NCBI GenBank assembly: GCA_001797335.1
Contig: MGPE01000011.1
Span: forward strand, 13,154 to 77,153
Length of the DNA stretch: 64,000 nt
Source: Deltaproteobacteria bacterium GWA2_38_16
Lineage (GTDB): Bacteria; Bdellovibrionota; JACOXK01; 2-02-FULL-40-11
Reading direction: 5' to 3'
The number at the start of each line of letters is the position of its first letter. Position 1 is the first letter of the stretch. Shown one piece after another: positions 20,157 to 64,000 of the stretch. The position numbers and the translations under genes were made by a program. The notes under the pieces are model-generated. The model searched no databases, was not told the DNA's origin, and saw only the letters and a list, made by a program, of their open reading frames with translations.

Positions 20157-23100
20157 AAGAACCGATATCCAAAAAATTTTAATTCTTGGAGCCGGACCTA
20201 TTGTGATTGGACAAGCGTGTGAATTTGATTATTCCGGCACCCAAGCCTGTAAAGCTTTAAAAGAAGAAGGCTATGAAATTATTCTCATGAATTCTAATCC
20301 TGCCACCATTATGACCGACCCAGAATTTGCAGATAAAACCTATATTGAACCTCTGACCCCTTTTTTCGTTGAAAAAGTCATTGAAAAAGAAAAACCGCAT
20401 GCCCTTCTTCCCACGCTCGGAGGACAAACGGCCCTAAATTTAGCCAAGACGCTGGCTGAAAACGGAATTCTTCAAAAGCATGGCGTAGAACTCATCGGGG
20501 CTAAACTTTCTTCTATTCAAAAAGCAGAGGATCGAGAACTGTTTAAAGAAGCCATGATTGAAATCGGCCTAGAGGTTCCTAAAAGTTCTGTCGTTTCTTC
20601 TCTTTCTGAGGCTTTATCTGTCATCCAATGGGTTGGATATCCTGCCATTATTCGACCTTCATATACGCTGGGAGGACAAGGCGGAAACATCGCCTATAAC
20701 TTAGAAGAATTTAGAGAAGCCATTGATTGGGGATTAAATTCAAGCCCTATTCATGAAGTCCTCATAGAGCAATCCGTTTTAGGATGGAAAGAATTTGAAC
20801 TCGAAGTAATGAGAGATTTAAAAGATAATGTTGTCATTATCTGCTCCATTGAAAATTTTGATCCCATGGGCATTCACACAGGAGATAGTATTACGGTAGC
20901 TCCCATCCAAACCTTAACCGATAAAGAATATCAACTCATGAGAGAGTCAGCGAAAAAAATTATTCGAAAAATGGGCGTAGATACGGGAGGCTCTAACATT
21001 CAATTTTCCGTACATCCTAAAACCGGAAAACAACTCGTCATTGAAATGAATCCAAGAGTTTCTAGAAGTTCTGCATTGGCTTCCAAAGCCACCGGGTTTC
21101 CGATTGCTAAAATCGCCGCTAAACTTGCCGTAGGATATACGCTGGATGAAATTCAAAATGATATTACGAAAGAAACCCCTGCTTCTTTTGAACCCACACT
21201 AGATTATGTGGTTACCAAAATCCCTCGCTTTGCTTTTGAAAAATTTCCTCAATCTGATACAGCACTCACTACTCAAATGAAATCGGTGGGAGAAGTGATG
21301 TCTATAGGAAGAACGTTTAAAGAATCTTTGCAAAAAGCCATTTGCTCTTTAGAAACAAACCATTTTGGATTTACCTCTCCCAAAGATGCTTCTTTTAGCA
21401 CAATCGTTAATCAACTTAAAAAACCAAATGCCGAAAGACTCTTATATATTGGAGAATCTCTGAGGCGTGGATTTACCATAGACCAAATATATGAACTGAC
21501 CCAGATTGATCCATGGTTTTTAAGGCACATCCAAGAAATTATTGAATCTGAAAAAGAAGTAAAAGACATAAAACAGGCTAAATCTCTTGGATTCTCGGAT
21601 TACAGGCTGGGGGTTTTGACCCAAACGTCTGAAGAGCAGATTCGAAAGTTACGGAAAGAACAAAACATTACGCCTCAATTTAAAACCGTCGATACCTGTG
21701 CAGCAGAATTTGAAGCCCACACCCCCTATTTTTATTCTACCTACGATGGAGAAGATGAAACAATGAGATCCTTCGCTTCGCTCAGGATGACATCACCAAA
21801 AAAGAAAATGATGATCTTGGGTGGTGGCCCTAATCGTATTGGTCAAGGCATTGAATTTGATTATTGTTGTGTTCATGCAAGCCTTGCCCTCCGAGAAGAT
21901 GGATTTGAAACCATTATGGTCAACTGCAATCCAGAAACGGTCAGTACCGATTACGATATTTCTGATAAACTTTATTTTGAACCTCTCACGATTGAAAATA
22001 TTTTGGCCATTTGTGAAAAAGAAAAACCCCAGGGAGTGATTGTTCAATTTGGTGGACAAACTCCTCTTAAACTCTGTAAAGCCTTGGAATATGCCGGTGT
22101 TCCCATTATTGGAACCCAACCCTCCTCTATTCATTTAGCTGAAGACCGGGAAGAATTTTCAAAACTCATTCAAAAACTCAATTTAAAACAGCCTCCGTAT
22201 TGCATTGCGAGAAATCTTGAGCAAGCCCGAGAGGTATCCAGAAAATTGGGATATCCTGTCTTGGTTCGTCCCTCATATGTTTTAGGGGGGCGCGCTATGG
22301 AAATCGTCTATGATGATGACGCCTTAGAAAAATTTGTTTTAAAAGCTTTAGAAATTTCAGATCAAAATCAACCCATTCTTCTTGATAAATTTTTAAAAAA
22401 TGCTCAAGAAATTGATGTCGATGCTATTTGTGACGGAAAAGATGTTTTTATTGGTGGCATTATGGAGCATATTGAAGAAGCCGGCATCCATTCAGGAGAT
22501 AGTACGTGTTCCATTCCTTCCTATACTCTAAGCCCAGCTCAACTCGATGAACTTCGGGAACACACCCAAAAAATAGCTTTTGCATTAAATGTCCGTGGAC
22601 TCATGAATGTTCAATATGCCATTCAAAATGGGGATATTTATGTTTTAGAAGTAAATCCCAGGGCTTCCAGAACTGTTCCTTTTGCCTCGAAAGCCACAGG
22701 TGCCCCCTTGGCAAAAATTGCCGCCCGAGTCATGGCGGGAAAAACATTAAAAGAACTGGGATACACAAAAGAAATCATCCCCAAAAAAGTCTCTGTCAAA
22801 GAAGTGGTATTCCCCTTTATCCGGTTTCCAGGATGCGATGTGCTTTTAGGCCCCGAAATGAGATCTACAGGAGAAGTGATGGGTTCTCACGAAACTTTTG
22901 CCTTAGCTTTTGCTAAAGCGTATATCGCTACCGGCTCTGAGCTTCCTTTAAAGGGCACCGCTTTTATCAGCGTAAAAGACGAAGATAAAGAGCGCGTATT
23001 TCCTTTAGCCAAAAAATTAAGCGACCTTGGATTTAAACTGATGGCCACAGGAGGGACCCATCAATTCTTAAGAGATAAGGGGGTCTTAAGTACCCGCGTT

Positions 23101-57587: not shown

Positions 57588-59642
57588 ATGAAGCACATTC
57601 GCATTATCCTTGTCATTTTTGTCATTCTGAGTGCCGTAGGCACGAAGAATCTCTACGCCCAAAATTCCATCTTCGACGAAGGGGTCGATACCACCATCCG
57701 CCCAGAAGATATCACTCAAGATCTCTACCAGTGGGCACAAAACACTGCTTTAAAACTTAAAAAAGTCCTAGAAGATATGCGAAATTTCGACCTTCCTGAA
57801 AAAAGAGCATTCTTGATTAAACACATTCAAGAAAGTGTCGAAGAAGCTCAAAATATTAGAGAGCTTCTCCTCATGCGCTTTGCTTTAAATCGCGCTCTAG
57901 ATTTAAATAAATCTTTTTCTGATCAAGACGATGAACTTTCTGTAAACTATGTTTTAATCCCTGCAATTAGACAAGCTATTGCGCTCTATGAAAGAGAAGA
58001 TCTCCCCTATTTAACAGCCACCCTCAATCAACAAAATATCCAAGACATTCCTGTCCCCTCTTATGCTGCTTTTACTAAAAATAATATTAGCTATTTACTG
58101 AATATCTCAAACCTTACTCCTTCTTATGTGAGCCAATTTGAAATTTTAAAAAATACAATTGTTTGGGTAGTTAATGACTTACTTCGATCTTCTGAAACCA
58201 AAAGAAATCCTACAAACTCTACTTTAATTTTAAATCTTGAAGAACTCTATTTTAAATATGAAAACACACCTATTGAAAACATCGATTATGTTCTCAATAA
58301 TAAAATCAGAAGTGCTCTTTTAAAAACTCAACATACGATGGCCATTGAAAAAAATGCCAAAGAAATGCCTCCGTTTATTCTCTACACCGCCCCTAATCAC
58401 ACATCGGATTCCACAAATTCCCCCTTTACTCATCAACTCCCCGAAAAACCCAAAGAACCTGGGATTCTTCAAAGAATTTTTGAAGAACGGTCTATTGAAA
58501 GAAGATACGAAGACATATCCATAGAACATCTGAGCATTGGAGCAGGCTTGAGACAGATTCAAGCAGAAAGCTCTCAAGGTAAAACTGAAACCAGAAATGT
58601 TCTCCATATTCCACTCAATATTCTCCGAGTAAAACATCCTAATAAAGGAGAGTTTTATGTTTTAAAATCAGAATTCGACATGACTCAAAATCAAGAATTT
58701 CTCCAACACAACCTAAAACTTTTAGGCGGACATTATCTTTGGAATATTGATAATGGCCCTATCTCCCTTGGCCCTTATGCCAATCTTGTCACCTTTAAAC
58801 GAGATGAACTGAGAAATTTAGAATTTGGACATTGGCTAGAATTGGGGCTGGCTTTAAACATCCAACCTTTTAAAAACAAACGTTTTTTTATTCATGCCAA
58901 AGCCTATGCACACCCATCTTTCAATGCACAAGACAGTCAATATTCAGAGCTGAATCATATGAATCTTCCCCAAGATGCCTCTCCCGAGTGGAAAGAAGAA
59001 CTAAAACAACTAGAGGCCAAACACTATAATGCTGAAACGGCCGCCATTAAAGCCTCTGAAGCCAAAAGAGATTCTCTCATGGCCACGGGAGAATATTATA
59101 TTTATACAGAACTGAATGGTAACCAATGGGTAGCTCACAATGGAGAGAGATACTGGAGAACCTACGGCCACAAAGTTTTAAATGACTCTGATCGCACAAC
59201 ACTCTTAAAGACAGATAAAATAAATGATTTCAAAGAGTATGGATTTATGACGTTAGAAATGGATGCCGAATGGATAAAGTCTATTAAAAGACAAGATGAT
59301 CTTATTTTACAATTTGGAGGACGCATTACCAATATGCACGTAGATGGTTATGATAACAACACCTTACCCCAAGTTCATCGAGATCGTTATAGCAATAAAG
59401 CCACAGAAACCAGCTCATTTTTCACATTACAGTACAGACTTTACGATATAGGCAGTCGAGACTTTCTGGACTCATATAACGACAGCAAGCTCTTTAATAT
59501 GGGCCCTGTTCTTGTCATTTCTTATGAAACCCTAGATAACCCTCTAGCTAAAAATCTCATGAGCTTTTTTAATCCTGACGCCGCCTCCCATGCGATCACG
59601 AAAACTGAAACATGGAGTATGTATGTTAAATTCGATTGGTAA
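57588..59642 (+). CDS. Array paralog 1: helical domain plus outer-membrane barrel-like domain
   Basis: 684 residues. Signal peptide with VILSAVGTKNLYA encoded by a palindromic repeat, cleavage before Q. Then SIFDEGVDTTIRPEDI and a helical domain (to ~residue 280; RELLLMRFALNRALDLN, LPYL, YAAFTKNNISYLLNISN). From ~310 there are about twelve amphipathic strands interrupted by a charged helical insertion (PEWKEELKQLEAKHYNAET), ending SMYVKFDW, an outer-membrane beta-signal with aromatic last residue. Probably an outer-membrane protein with a periplasmic helical domain. No family recognised. Confidence 0.75.
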   Translation: MKHIRIILVIFVILSAVGTKNLYAQNSIFDEGVDTTIRPEDITQDLYQWAQNTALKLKKVLEDMRNFDLPEKRAFLIKHIQESVEEAQNIRELLLMRFALNRALDLNKSFSDQDDELSVNYVLIPAIRQAIALYEREDLPYLTATLNQQNIQDIPVPSYAAFTKNNISYLLNISNLTPSYVSQFEILKNTIVWVVNDLLRSSETKRNPTNSTLILNLEELYFKYENTPIENIDYVLNNKIRSALLKTQHTMAIEKNAKEMPPFILYTAPNHTSDSTNSPFTHQLPEKPKEPGILQRIFEERSIERRYEDISIEHLSIGAGLRQIQAESSQGKTETRNVLHIPLNILRVKHPNKGEFYVLKSEFDMTQNQEFLQHNLKLLGGHYLWNIDNGPISLGPYANLVTFKRDELRNLEFGHWLELGLALNIQPFKNKRFFIHAKAYAHPSFNAQDSQYSELNHMNLPQDASPEWKEELKQLEAKHYNAETAAIKASEAKRDSLMATGEYYIYTELNGNQWVAHNGERYWRTYGHKVLNDSDRTTLLKTDKINDFKEYGFMTLEMDAEWIKSIKRQDDLILQFGGRITNMHVDGYDNNTLPQVHRDRYSNKATETSSFFTLQYRLYDIGSRDFLDSYNDSKLFNMGPVLVISYETLDNPLAKNLMSFFNPDAASHAITKTETWSMYVKFDW
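57621..57652 (+). repeat. Palindromic repeat half-unit in signal peptide of paralog 1
   Basis: ATTCT-ga-GTGCC-gta-GGCAC-ga-AGAAT with GTCAT before and CT after. Encodes VILSAVGTKN of the signal peptide. The copies at 59662 and 61737 differ only in the loop. Confidence 0.88.
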
Positions 59643-61701
59643 AACACTCTTTCTTCTTCTGGTCATTCTGAGTGCCATCGGCACGAAGAATCTCTATGCA
59701 CAAGAAGCATCTTCTATCTTCGACGAAGGCGTCGATACCACGATTCGCGCAGAAGACATTGGGGATGATGTACGCATGTGGGCACAGAATACGGCAATTC
59801 AACTGACTAAAGCCCTTAGAAAAGTAAAACAACTGAGTAGCGATCAAAAAAGAAAATTCTTAGAAGAGGCCATCCAAGAATCTGTTGAAGAAGCACAAAC
59901 TCAAAGAGAGTTGCTTTTAATGCGCTTTGCTTTAAATCGCGCCCTGGCTATCAATAAATTTTTTGATGATACGAGTTCAGAACTGGCATACCAATATGTT
60001 TTAATCCCCAGTATTAAAGAAGCTATCGCTCTTTATAATGAAGCGGATCTCCCCTACTTAAATGCCAATCAAGATAGAGAGATCCCTACTCAAGAAATTG
60101 GAGTTCCACCCTATGCCGCCTTTACTCGAGCTAACATGCATTACCTTTTAAATATCTCTAACATTCACCCATCTTATAAAACACAATTTGAACTATTAAG
60201 GCTTTCTATTGTGTGGATGGTAAATGATATTTTGCGCTCCCCTCAAGCCAAAAGAAACTCTACTAATGCCAATATTATTTTAGATTTAAAAAAAATCTAT
60301 TCTAAATATGAAAACACACCTGAAAGCGACATTACCTATACGCTCAATAACAGCTTAAGAGCAGAAATCTTAGAAGCCTATAAAACATTAGTTGTAGAAA
60401 GTAATGCGGCAAAAATCCCGGCCTTTATGGTATATTCCGCTCCAAACCATCCTCACGAAAATATTGAAATAGCTGCGCCAAAACCTAAAGAAGAAAATAG
60501 CCTTCTCACCCGAATGCTTGCAATGAAAAAAGACGCCAAAGAATATTCCGCCACTCGCTATGGCTATTTTAATACAGGCATTGGGGGGGGAACATATACG
60601 CAGACAAGCGACAATGAAGAAAAAACTCAAGGAATGATTGCTCTTCAATTTAAAGTTTTTCATTATGAAACACCCGAAGCGGGGCAAGAAGCCTATGGTG
60701 CAAAAGGGGATTTTATTCGAGTGGGCACAGAATTCCCCAGACAAAATATAGAAATTTTAGGTGCAAAATGGGCTTGGCCTGTGAGTGACCATCTTGCTCT
60801 AGGCCCTTATATTAGAATTCTTAAACGCACACGAGATAATACACGCTTAACAGAAGATACCCGCTGGTTAAATGCAGGAATCAATTGGCAAATTCAACCG
60901 TTTGATTCTAAAAAATTAACAATTAATATTGCTACCTATTATGTACCAGATCCAAAATGGGGCGCGGTAACATTAAAACATTTCACAATGGGGGATGTAT
61001 CTGAAGGATGGAGAAATGATTTAGCCGCTCGTGAGGCTCAGTATCAAGATGAATGGACACAACAAATTCAATCTTCACAACAAAGGGCTACTCAACTCCA
61101 AGGCGTGGGATATAGACGTTACACAGATGAACAAGGGCGCGAGTGGATAGATGTCCCTGGTGCAGGAAGAGAAAACGATCATAAAATTCTTACTGATGGT
61201 GATCGAAACACCCTCATTAGCCAAGAAAATATGTTTGAAAGGCGACGTCGCGCTTTTGTTGTAGAAGCCGATGCACGGCTCGTTGGATCTTTTAAAAGAT
61301 ATAATGACATTGCGTTAACCCTGGGGGGTTATTACGAAAACATGATGATGGAAGATTTTAAGCGTAATTTGCCACAAACAAATGCTCAGATCTATAAAAC
61401 ACGTTTTGAAAATCATGGACTCCATGGCACTCTTGAATTTCGTCTATGGGACTCCGAAAGAAAAGGAATAAATCATTACTGGGATAGACCTACCTATTCC
61501 TATCGAGACGAAGAATATACCTGGTCTGCCCCCGATTATGACAAAAAAGATGTTACGTTTGGCCCAACCCTTGTTATTTCCTATGACATGGATGATAACC
61601 AAATTGGAAAAAACTTTGTAAGTTATTTTAACGCTGACAGAGCCAAAGACATACCTTCTCAAACAGAAGTTCTTCAAGTGTACATAACATTCGATTGGTA
61701 A
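59623..61701 (+). CDS. Array paralog 2: helical domain plus outer-membrane barrel-like domain
   Basis: 692 residues from ATG 59623 (GGAG five bases before it), inside the end of paralog 1. Signal peptide with VILSAIGTKNLYA from a palindromic repeat, then SIFDEGVDTTIRAEDIGDD, the shared helical domain (RELLLMRFALNRALAIN, YAAFTRANMHYLLNISN) and a barrel-like C-terminal half with the same charged insertion (AREAQYQDEWTQQIQSSQQR), ending QVYITFDW. Same architecture as paralog 1, with clear divergence in the middle. Confidence 0.75.
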   Translation: MLNSIGKTLFLLLVILSAIGTKNLYAQEASSIFDEGVDTTIRAEDIGDDVRMWAQNTAIQLTKALRKVKQLSSDQKRKFLEEAIQESVEEAQTQRELLLMRFALNRALAINKFFDDTSSELAYQYVLIPSIKEAIALYNEADLPYLNANQDREIPTQEIGVPPYAAFTRANMHYLLNISNIHPSYKTQFELLRLSIVWMVNDILRSPQAKRNSTNANIILDLKKIYSKYENTPESDITYTLNNSLRAEILEAYKTLVVESNAAKIPAFMVYSAPNHPHENIEIAAPKPKEENSLLTRMLAMKKDAKEYSATRYGYFNTGIGGGTYTQTSDNEEKTQGMIALQFKVFHYETPEAGQEAYGAKGDFIRVGTEFPRQNIEILGAKWAWPVSDHLALGPYIRILKRTRDNTRLTEDTRWLNAGINWQIQPFDSKKLTINIATYYVPDPKWGAVTLKHFTMGDVSEGWRNDLAAREAQYQDEWTQQIQSSQQRATQLQGVGYRRYTDEQGREWIDVPGAGRENDHKILTDGDRNTLISQENMFERRRRAFVVEADARLVGSFKRYNDIALTLGGYYENMMMEDFKRNLPQTNAQIYKTRFENHGLHGTLEFRLWDSERKGINHYWDRPTYSYRDEEYTWSAPDYDKKDVTFGPTLVISYDMDDNQIGKNFVSYFNADRAKDIPSQTEVLQVYITFDW
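59662..59693 (+). repeat. Palindromic repeat half-unit in signal peptide of paralog 2
   Basis: ATTCT-ga-GTGCC-atc-GGCAC-ga-AGAAT. Encodes VILSAIGTKN. Identical to the copy at 61737. Confidence 0.88.
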
Positions 61702-61706
61702 AATAT

Positions 61707-62936
61707 ATGAATAAAAATATTTTTATACTCTTTTTCGTCATTCTGAGTGCCATCGGCACGAAGAATCTCTATGCGCAGGACTCCATCTTCGACGAGGGGG
61801 TAGATACCACCATTCGCGCAGAAGACATTGGCGATGATGTACGCATGTGGGCACAAAATACGGCATTGAAACTTAAAAAACTTTTGAAAGAAGTTAAAAA
61901 AGGCACTTTTCTAGAAAAAAGAGTCCTGATTCTTCAAACCATTCAAGAAAGCGTTGAAGAAGCTAAAGATAGACGAGAGCTTCTCTTAATGCGCTTTACC
62001 TTAAACCGGGCGCTAAAACTGGAAGAAGAATTTAATAATCAACATGATGCCTTGGTGGTTCACCACATTTTACTCCCTGCTGTAAAACAAGCCATTTCTC
62101 TTTATGAACAAAGCGATCTGCCTTATTTACAATTTAACAGTGGAAAACCGGAGGCCGAAATTGAGCCCCCTAATTATGCAGCCTATACCAAAACCAATAT
62201 TGGATATCTTTTAAATGCTTCTAATATGAATAAGACTTTAGAGGGCCAATTTAACATTGCCAAAATATCTTTAGCCTGGGTGGCCAAAGACATTCTTCGC
62301 TCCCCTAAAGCCAAAAGAAACTCTGCTAATGCTGATATTGTCATCCAACTTCAAAAACTTTTAACGGAACTAGAACCTATTCAAAAATGCAACATTAATT
62401 ACAAACTTAACAACAAACTCAGAAACACACTCTTAGATCTTTTAGAAAAAATTGTCCCAGAAACATCCTCCGAACATATTGTTCCCCCACTGTGTTATCT
62501 AACACCCAAAGATCTTGTAGTAGATTTAGAAAAAGAGCTTGAAAAGATCCTTGATCTTACGACGTATATAAATAGCATTTCAGAACGCGATGGAATACTG
62601 CGTCAGTGGTATTATCAACATCAACCTCAAATAACCATACCGACAATAAGCACTCTTTGTTGCTATTTGAACAGTTCAGAAATAAAAAATGAACTTATAC
62701 GAGATTGGTTTGATATAAAGTATCAATCTTTGAATTTAAAACAACTACTGAACTTATGCGAACAATCTAATTACCATAGCACAAGAGATTACATGATTAA
62801 AAAATATTTTAATGCTAAATATGAAACTCTATCCACAGAAGAAACAAAAACATTAGCCGCCTGGTCAAATAGCTATGAACTAAAAGATTATATCTTAAGC
62901 AAAAAAGTACAATTAAATATGTCACAAAATAAATGA
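61707..62936 (+). CDS. Array paralog 3: helical domain with replaced C-terminus
   Basis: 409 residues from ATG 61707, five bases after paralog 2. Repeat-encoded signal peptide (VILSAIGTKNLYA), SIFDEGVDTTIRAEDIGDDV and the shared helical domain (RELLLMRFTLNRALKLE, YAAYTKTNIGYLLNASN). After ~residue 280 the barrel is absent. Instead there are about four imperfect ~30-residue helical units (for example YLNSSEIKNELIRDWFDIKY, RDYMIKKYFNAKYETLS, SNSYELKDYILSKK). Likely periplasmic rather than outer-membrane. No family recognised. Confidence 0.72.
   Translation: MNKNIFILFFVILSAIGTKNLYAQDSIFDEGVDTTIRAEDIGDDVRMWAQNTALKLKKLLKEVKKGTFLEKRVLILQTIQESVEEAKDRRELLLMRFTLNRALKLEEEFNNQHDALVVHHILLPAVKQAISLYEQSDLPYLQFNSGKPEAEIEPPNYAAYTKTNIGYLLNASNMNKTLEGQFNIAKISLAWVAKDILRSPKAKRNSANADIVIQLQKLLTELEPIQKCNINYKLNNKLRNTLLDLLEKIVPETSSEHIVPPLCYLTPKDLVVDLEKELEKILDLTTYINSISERDGILRQWYYQHQPQITIPTISTLCCYLNSSEIKNELIRDWFDIKYQSLNLKQLLNLCEQSNYHSTRDYMIKKYFNAKYETLSTEETKTLAAWSNSYELKDYILSKKVQLNMSQNK
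61737..61768 (+). repeat. Palindromic repeat half-unit in signal peptide of paralog 3
   Basis: Identical 32 bases to 59662-59693. Encodes VILSAIGTKN. The surrounding coding sequence is less similar than the repeat itself. Confidence 0.88.
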
Positions 62937-62951
62937 ACAAAAATATTTGTT
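62936..62951. terminator. Weak hairpin after paralog 3
   Basis: AACAAA-aata-TTTGTT followed by AATTTT, between paralog 3 and the small partner gene. A short AT stem, so termination would be inefficient. Confidence 0.3.
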
Positions 62952-62975
62952 AATTTTCGCGGTGAGGACAAAAAA

Positions 62976-63233
62976 ATGAGGACGCAATCTATCGATACAA
63001 ATTCCAAAGTTGAAGAGATTCAAGTTAAGCTTTTGCATAACATGAAAAGCTCACTTCGTTTCAAAAAAACATTAGAGATGTCCTCATGGATTTTATGGCT
63101 TGGGAAGAAAGCTATTTCAAAAGCACATCCTGGGTGGGATCAAAAGCAGAAGGACTTATTTTTTGTTGAAACTCATTATGGAAACTCTTTGGCTCAAAAA
63201 CTGAGAAATTATTTAGAAAAAAAACATTTATGA
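62976..63233 (+). CDS. Small partner of an AbiEii-like nucleotidyltransferase
   Basis: 85 residues, soluble. The pattern (Q.KLL..M..S.RF..TLEMSS....GKKAISKAHPGWDQ, FVETHYGNSLAQKLRNYL) matches the short proteins commonly encoded before nucleotidyltransferase-domain proteins in putative toxin-antitoxin pairs. GTGAGG lies before ATG. ATGA overlap with the next gene. Antitoxin role is inference from context. Confidence 0.7.
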   Translation: MRTQSIDTNSKVEEIQVKLLHNMKSSLRFKKTLEMSSWILWLGKKAISKAHPGWDQKQKDLFFVETHYGNSLAQKLRNYLEKKHL

Positions 63234-63811
63234 AACAAGAATCGGATATTATTTTAGCCCTTAAACCATTTCTTAAAGTTCTCGACCGTCTTGGGATTTC
63301 CTATTATGTGGGGGGTTCCATTGCCAGTTCAACCTATGGGGCCTTTCGTGCCACAAGAGATATTGATATGGTGTTGAATTTAAATCCAACCCATATAGAC
63401 GAACTCGTTCATTCTTTAAAAAATGAATATTATATTGATCGAGATATGATATTGGATGCCATAAAACACAAGATCTCTTTCAACCTCATTCATTTAAAGA
63501 CAATGTTTAAAATTGATGTTTTTCTTCTAAAAGAAAGAGCATTTGATCAAGAAGCGTTTCGAAGAAAAAAAGAAAATAAAATTGAAGAGTCAGATCGTTT
63601 AACCGTTTTTTGTTTATCTCCAGAAGACATTATTTTGCATAAATTAGAGTGGTATAAAGAAGGAAATTTTGTTTCAGAAAGGCAGTGGCAGGACGTGGCA
63701 GGAGTTTTAAAAGTTCAAGGAGACCAGTTAGATAAAAATTATATGAAAAAATGGGCCAAAGAAATAGGTGTTTTAGATCTTTTGGAAAAAGCCCTTCAGG
63801 AGGTACAATGA
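63230..63811 (+). CDS. AbiEii-like nucleotidyltransferase
   Basis: 193 residues. YYVGGSIASSTYGAFRATRDIDMV gives the GGS...RxTxDID motif, in two runs; the third carboxylate is in FKIDVF. SPEDIILHKLEWY is the family's C-terminal block. Minimal nucleotidyltransferases of this type act as toxins (AbiEii/MenA-like, tRNA targets) or are uncharacterised. Overlaps its small partner at the start and paralog 4 at the stop, so it is translationally coupled into the array. Confidence 0.8.
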   Translation: MKQESDIILALKPFLKVLDRLGISYYVGGSIASSTYGAFRATRDIDMVLNLNPTHIDELVHSLKNEYYIDRDMILDAIKHKISFNLIHLKTMFKIDVFLLKERAFDQEAFRRKKENKIEESDRLTVFCLSPEDIILHKLEWYKEGNFVSERQWQDVAGVLKVQGDQLDKNYMKKWAKEIGVLDLLEKALQEVQ

Positions 63812-64000
63812 AAAAACTATTTATTTTATTTTTTCTCTGGATCCTCGCTTTCGCGGGGATGACTATTGTCGCTCAGGATCTCTTTGCCCAAGACTCTATC
63901 TTCGACGAAGGGGTCGACACCACCATCCGTCCAGAAGATATCACTCAAGATCTCTACCAGTGGGCACAAAACACTGCTTTAAAACTTAAAAAAGTCCTAG
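63808..64000 (+). CDS. Array paralog 4, 3' end outside window
   Basis: First 64 residues only. ATG overlaps the nucleotidyltransferase stop (ATGA) with AGGAGG four bases before it. Signal peptide MKKLFILFFLWILAFAGMTI..., cleavage near LFA-QD, then SIFDEGVDTTIRPEDITQDL as in paralog 1. Over the last ~100 bases it is almost identical to paralog 1 (two differences seen), while its signal peptide comes from a different member of the palindromic-repeat family. Confidence 0.78.
   Translation, partial: MKKLFILFFLWILAFAGMTIVAQDLFAQDSIFDEGVDTTIRPEDITQDLYQWAQNTALKLKKVL
63837..63863 (-). repeat. Palindromic repeat half-unit in signal peptide of paralog 4
   Basis: On the minus strand GTCATCCCCGC-gaaa-GCGAGGATCCAG; on the plus strand it encodes WILAFAGMT of the signal peptide. 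The inner and outer ends match the dcd-upstream copy (53751), not the GTGCC/GGCAC type of paralogs 1-3. Confidence 0.85.

Follow-up and report, generated by a model that had tools for sequence, protein, structure and literature searches.

The window, that is, the whole stretch of 64,000 nucleotides that was analysed, closes with a cluster of four paralogous genes on the forward strand: paralog 1 (positions 57588–59642, 684 residues), paralog 2 (59623–61701, 692 residues), paralog 3 (61707–62936, 409 residues), and paralog 4 (63808–64000), which is incomplete because the end of the window is also the end of the contig (C11). Paralog 1 consists of a helical N-terminal domain and a strand-rich C-terminal half that ends in YVKFDW, and its AlphaFold model is confident mainly at residues 40–255. 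A Pfam search of the paralog family returned no family above the cut-off, and a fold search with a protein of this family gave no match below an E value of 0.001. The interval between paralogs 3 and 4 (62976–63811) contains a small ORF and, downstream of it, a nucleotidyltransferase-like ORF; the pair resembles a two-gene insertion, such as a toxin–antitoxin pair.

The predicted signal peptide of paralog 1, MKHIRIILVIF-VILSAVGTKNL-YA with cleavage before Q, includes a segment (VILSAVGTKNL) encoded by a palindromic repeat (REP) at 57621–57652 on the forward strand. Forward-strand REPs also encode VILSAIGTKNL in the signal peptides of paralog 2 (59662–59693) and paralog 3 (61737–61768). As the first-pass annotation had proposed, these three REPs encode signal peptide residues: they match one common pattern exactly, all lie in frame with the signal peptide codons, and have no counterpart in 100 shuffled sequences. 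They belong to the tandem-G·A class described below. The REP of paralog 4 belongs to the perfect-hairpin class, is CGTC-1-like with a single stem change that leaves a G-T pair, and lies on the reverse strand, its reverse reading being WILAFAGMT; shuffled controls were likewise 0. The annotation had recognised this variant and its opposite orientation; the repeat occupies positions 63839–63863. Sequence comparison suggests that GCTCAGGATCTC (63864–63889, forward strand), which is located between this newer REP and the cleavage region, may be the right-end remnant of an older REP. The repeat had been said to form the hydrophobic part of the signal peptides. In fact, the first 6–10 hydrophobic residues are not repeat-derived; the repeat encodes only where the hydrophobic region ends, together with most of the pre-cleavage region.

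REPs inside ORFs, including at N-termini, are known, and Di Nocera et al. argued that many of the N-terminal ones are untranslated (PMC3733652). If this applied here, the REPs would be 5′ untranslated DNA and translation would begin downstream; REPs do lie directly upstream of a better start in L039, L049, L064, and L119. However, in paralogs 1–3 the stretch from the REP to the mature domain offers no usable start, and a downstream start in these genes would abolish any signal peptide. We therefore consider a misplaced start site to be very improbable.

In this genome (2.0 Mb, 19 contigs), 185 sites fit the pattern GTCATYCY..GRATCY, versus 1 match for the reversed-pattern control; the repeat family, which had been noted between unrelated genes elsewhere in the window, is thus abundant and dispersed throughout the genome. 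The copies were examined as stretches around the pattern sites rather than as an annotated whole genome, and 172 of the copies read form clear palindromes. They fall into the two subtypes that the first-pass annotation had distinguished, a perfect-hairpin class (75 copies) and a tandem-G·A class (97 copies). The typical perfect hairpin has a stem of 8 bp and a loop of 4 nt (stem/loop 8/4 in 19/75, 8/5 in 18/75, and 9/5 in 15/75 copies) and a tail of CCA (34/75) or CTA (27/75). In the G·A class, a GA/GA tandem mismatch follows the first 5 bp in 95 of 97 copies and the tail is mainly CTC (65/97). A TGTC or CGTC tag is present in 57 of the 75 perfect copies and 68 of the 97 G·A-class copies, GTC itself being part of the search pattern. 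The mismatch is retained at the same place of the stem in 95 of 97 copies (from the window and loci L036–L130), a hint that some factor recognises it.

Comparison with the CGTC-tagged REPs of Di Nocera et al. (2013), which include dRS3 of Neisseria and RPE-4/RPE-6 of Rickettsia (PMC3733652), revealed that (i) the perfect class shares the unpaired (C/T)GTC tag, the AT-starting stem of 8–9 bp, the loop of 4–5 nt in the combinations 8/4, 8/5, or 9/5, and the CCA-type tail; (ii) the repeats are likewise dispersed, occur as close opposite pairs, and lie in some cases within ORFs; and (iii) over half of the copies here, unlike the published ones, belong to the class interrupted by the tandem G·A mismatch, mostly with a CTC tail. 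The stem of this latter class, which includes the repeats of paralogs 1–3, departs from that of CGTC-tagged REPs; because of the GA/GA mismatch in 95 of 97 copies, we designate it a sister class rather than CGTC REPs proper. The published class is without a dedicated transposase (PMC3733652). A PF01797 search of this genome found a single Y1 transposase gene, which is split and IS200-like, and no intact mobilising transposase (RAYT); no Y1 transposase was detected in the relative G001. About one third of the REPs fall in coding sequence, across many kinds of gene. One, at window positions 21766–21791, lies in frame and encodes RSFASLRMT at residue 554 of 1081 of a gene that is carB-like (carbamoyl-phosphate synthase large subunit) by its sequence motifs alone. 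Another, at 2199–2224, encodes WIPDQIGDD at residue 694 of about 709, near the C-terminus of another ORF.

Homologs of the paralog family occur in the genomes G001, G003, G004, and G005, which are relatives of the same taxonomic family. Across the signal peptide parts of the 20 family members (578 codons), a REP is present in 11, versus one pattern match, judged to be due to chance, in the 8,902 codons of the mature parts (Fisher 4e-13, with shared ancestry ignored). The encoded pieces include VILSAVGTKNL, WILAFAGMT, WIPAFAGMT, VIPSTARNL, VIPSVARDL, VIPSIARDL, and VILSAAKNL. The relatives' members carry other REP copies in the signal peptide (WIPAFAGMT, VIPSTARNL, VIPSVARDL, VILSAAKNL) or no repeat; in none of these orthologs are the residues conserved over unrelated DNA. 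By inspection and a crude rule-based score, the peptides have the features of Sec signal peptides, namely a positive start, a hydrophobic core, and small pre-cleavage residues, from which we infer that the leaders are cleaved and the proteins exported. REP-bearing signal peptides are 21–32 residues long, and 11–18 without the REP residues (ten signal peptides measured), whereas those of repeat-free homologs have 19–22 residues, a comparison that leaves out G005_a and two repeat-free members. The crude score, which missed one member (L009), often remained plausible after the repeat was deleted. A phylum-wide test for ATGA followed by WIPAFAGMT hit few genomes, the only clear signal peptide match being a member of the paralog family, with a gap limit that also missed L121 (see below).

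Closely related members differ in the REP that they carry at the same site. In a tree of the mature domains, G001_b and G001_c are sisters (support 100/98), and their signal peptides contain WIPAFAGMT and VIPSTARNL, which are encoded by different REPs in opposite orientations; the DNA directly downstream of the two REPs is closely similar, and the identity over the whole mature part is 79%. Paralogs 1 and 4 also carry different REPs in opposite orientations, yet their mature starts are nearly identical: their DNA is 94% identical over 126 nt, starting inside the REP tail, and identical near the contig end. G001_d, with a REP, is the sister of G005_b, without one (support 95/89). The inner branches of the tree are weakly supported, so that no exact number of replacement events is given.

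Remnants of older repeats are shared as well. The 17-mer GTCATTCTGAGTGCCAT occurs three times in 8 genomes, only in the signal peptides of paralogs 2 and 3 and of G005_a, and connects signal peptides of two genera; in G005_a it is a truncated half, with a newer REP directly behind it. In the loci retrieved, GCACGAATCTCTTCGC was confined to the signal peptides of G001_a and G001_b. Because GTCATTCTGAGTGCCAT is shared and is truncated before the newer REP, one REP acquisition probably predates the split of the genera, spread by duplication, and was then overwritten. The idea that repeats were recruited independently by subtype and orientation thus survives in part: there are two subtypes and two orientations, and the shared remnants indicate that not all recruitments were independent, at least one being ancestral. 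The proposal that the repeats were either domesticated or swapped in from other copies was largely right, since the relatives display both retention and replacement.

Alternatively, the nucleic acid, rather than the peptide, may have been selected. An early hairpin in the mRNA (or DNA) might, for example, slow translation or regulate expression, with the residues being incidental; the hairpins in the signal peptides are mostly intact, and an action at the RNA level has been proposed for intergenic REPs (PMC3733652). Nevertheless, the peptide remains signal peptide-like while hairpin, orientation, and class vary, and the family members without the repeat do without a hairpin. A role at the nucleic acid level therefore seems improbable to us.

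REPs were also found in the leaders of four other putative exported proteins in this genome (L036, L083, L124, and L121) and of two in G001 (L162 and L207); the leader genes were selected visually among the listed ORFs, with start sites inferred. The L083 leader has a lipobox, and in L066 a REP is possibly located in a prepilin leader. The orthologs of L083 have repeat-free signal peptides in five relatives, as does the ortholog of L121 in one relative; therefore, both insertions look lineage-specific. Acidic residues are encoded by none of the six REPs in unrelated leaders, but by 55 of the 63 REPs located elsewhere in coding sequence (Fisher 2.5e-5). In three of these unrelated genes, the REP forms the positively charged start, R-x-F-T-x-F-R-M-T. 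The positional enrichment in these leaders, about 3- to 5-fold (P 0.001–0.026, according to the proportion of proteins taken to be exported), is modest and suggestive.

This modest enrichment, together with the third of REPs that lie in coding sequence of many kinds, would suit a passive origin, in which REPs insert everywhere, signal peptides accept nearly any non-acidic hydrophobic insert, and the genes do not rely on the repeat. Such neutral tolerance would not readily explain why the family signal peptides shrink to just 11–18 residues without the REP, or why the REP segment has been retained across two genera despite widely diverged mature regions, and we regard it as unlikely.

We consider it probable that these are REP-derived Sec signal peptides, in which REPs were acquired in frame and then overwritten by later copies. 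CGTC-type REPs and the tandem-G·A sister class have become dispersed across the genomes of this bacterial family, partly in frame into genes. Two readings of a REP encode non-polar segments that contain small residues: V-I-L/P-S-x-x-K/R-N/D-L, in which the tail codon CTC gives the final L, and W-I-P-A-F-A-G-M-T. A copy that inserted downstream of the hydrophobic core and ahead of the A-Q cleavage region in the secreted-protein family could serve as part of the signal peptide, the copies in signal peptide regions being those in hydrophobic, mostly non-acidic frames. Once the original signal peptide sequence was lost, the REP would be needed, and gene duplication would hand the REP-bearing signal peptide on to paralogs. 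Later REPs may land on, or recombine with, the resident REP, which would leave close paralogs different at the same site. A broader proposal, to which we give less than even credence, is that REPs in this lineage land preferentially in signal peptides, that REP turnover is an ordinary route to new or replacement signal peptides, and that secretion tags are drawn from a common pool of noncoding repeats.

Signal peptides are fast-evolving sequences, and where they come from can seldom be traced. In this case, the DNA source can be recognised, and close paralogs have had one and the same site rewritten by different repeats, with remnants of older repeats persisting, so that the origin of a new secretion signal becomes directly testable and dispersed palindromes gain a concrete use at the protein level. 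Recurrent use of such repeats as secretion signals had been taken to be undescribed. This is only partly right, since one case is known: the RU-2/YPAL repeat of Yersinia forms part of the predicted signal peptide of YPO1552, whose orthologs have unrelated signal peptides (Delihas 2007, PMC2759123). Common to both systems are a repeat within a predicted signal peptide and orthologs without the repeat (those of L083 and L121, and the repeat-free family members). By contrast, the Yersinia cases are isolated loci with a 168-bp element, and successive replacements among members of a gene family are not described for them. The palindromic elements of Rickettsia and Wolbachia (Ogata, Claverie) are also in-frame repeats in otherwise conserved genes, as is the REP in the carB-like gene; according to a review, they are added segments inside mature proteins, unlike the recurrent secretion signals here (PMC2229807). 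The study on CGTC-tagged REPs was not seen to report signal peptide use or serial overwriting (PMC3733652). A literature search by the encoded peptide gave no match, and a search by the repeat DNA gave seemingly unrelated papers, except for one Neisseria paper with the CCCGCGAAAGCGGG core. Within the open-licence literature searched, the repeated use and replacement of REPs in signal peptides, both among members of a single family and in exported proteins unrelated to it, is new.

Further copies were observed or suspected. The leader of a Sco1-like copper protein (L125, 2991–3018) may hold a REP (VIPRLDRGIC), its start codon being ambiguous. The exported protein of 602 residues encoded at L124 contains a second in-frame REP (1776–1801), which encodes SHPEQSEGS at residue 160. 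At the start of a 514-residue ORF of G001 (L179), the ATG that ends a REP of the GGAATGAC type is a possible start codon of an exported protein (MTRFRITFFQKLFIIVAILLFPYVSYA).
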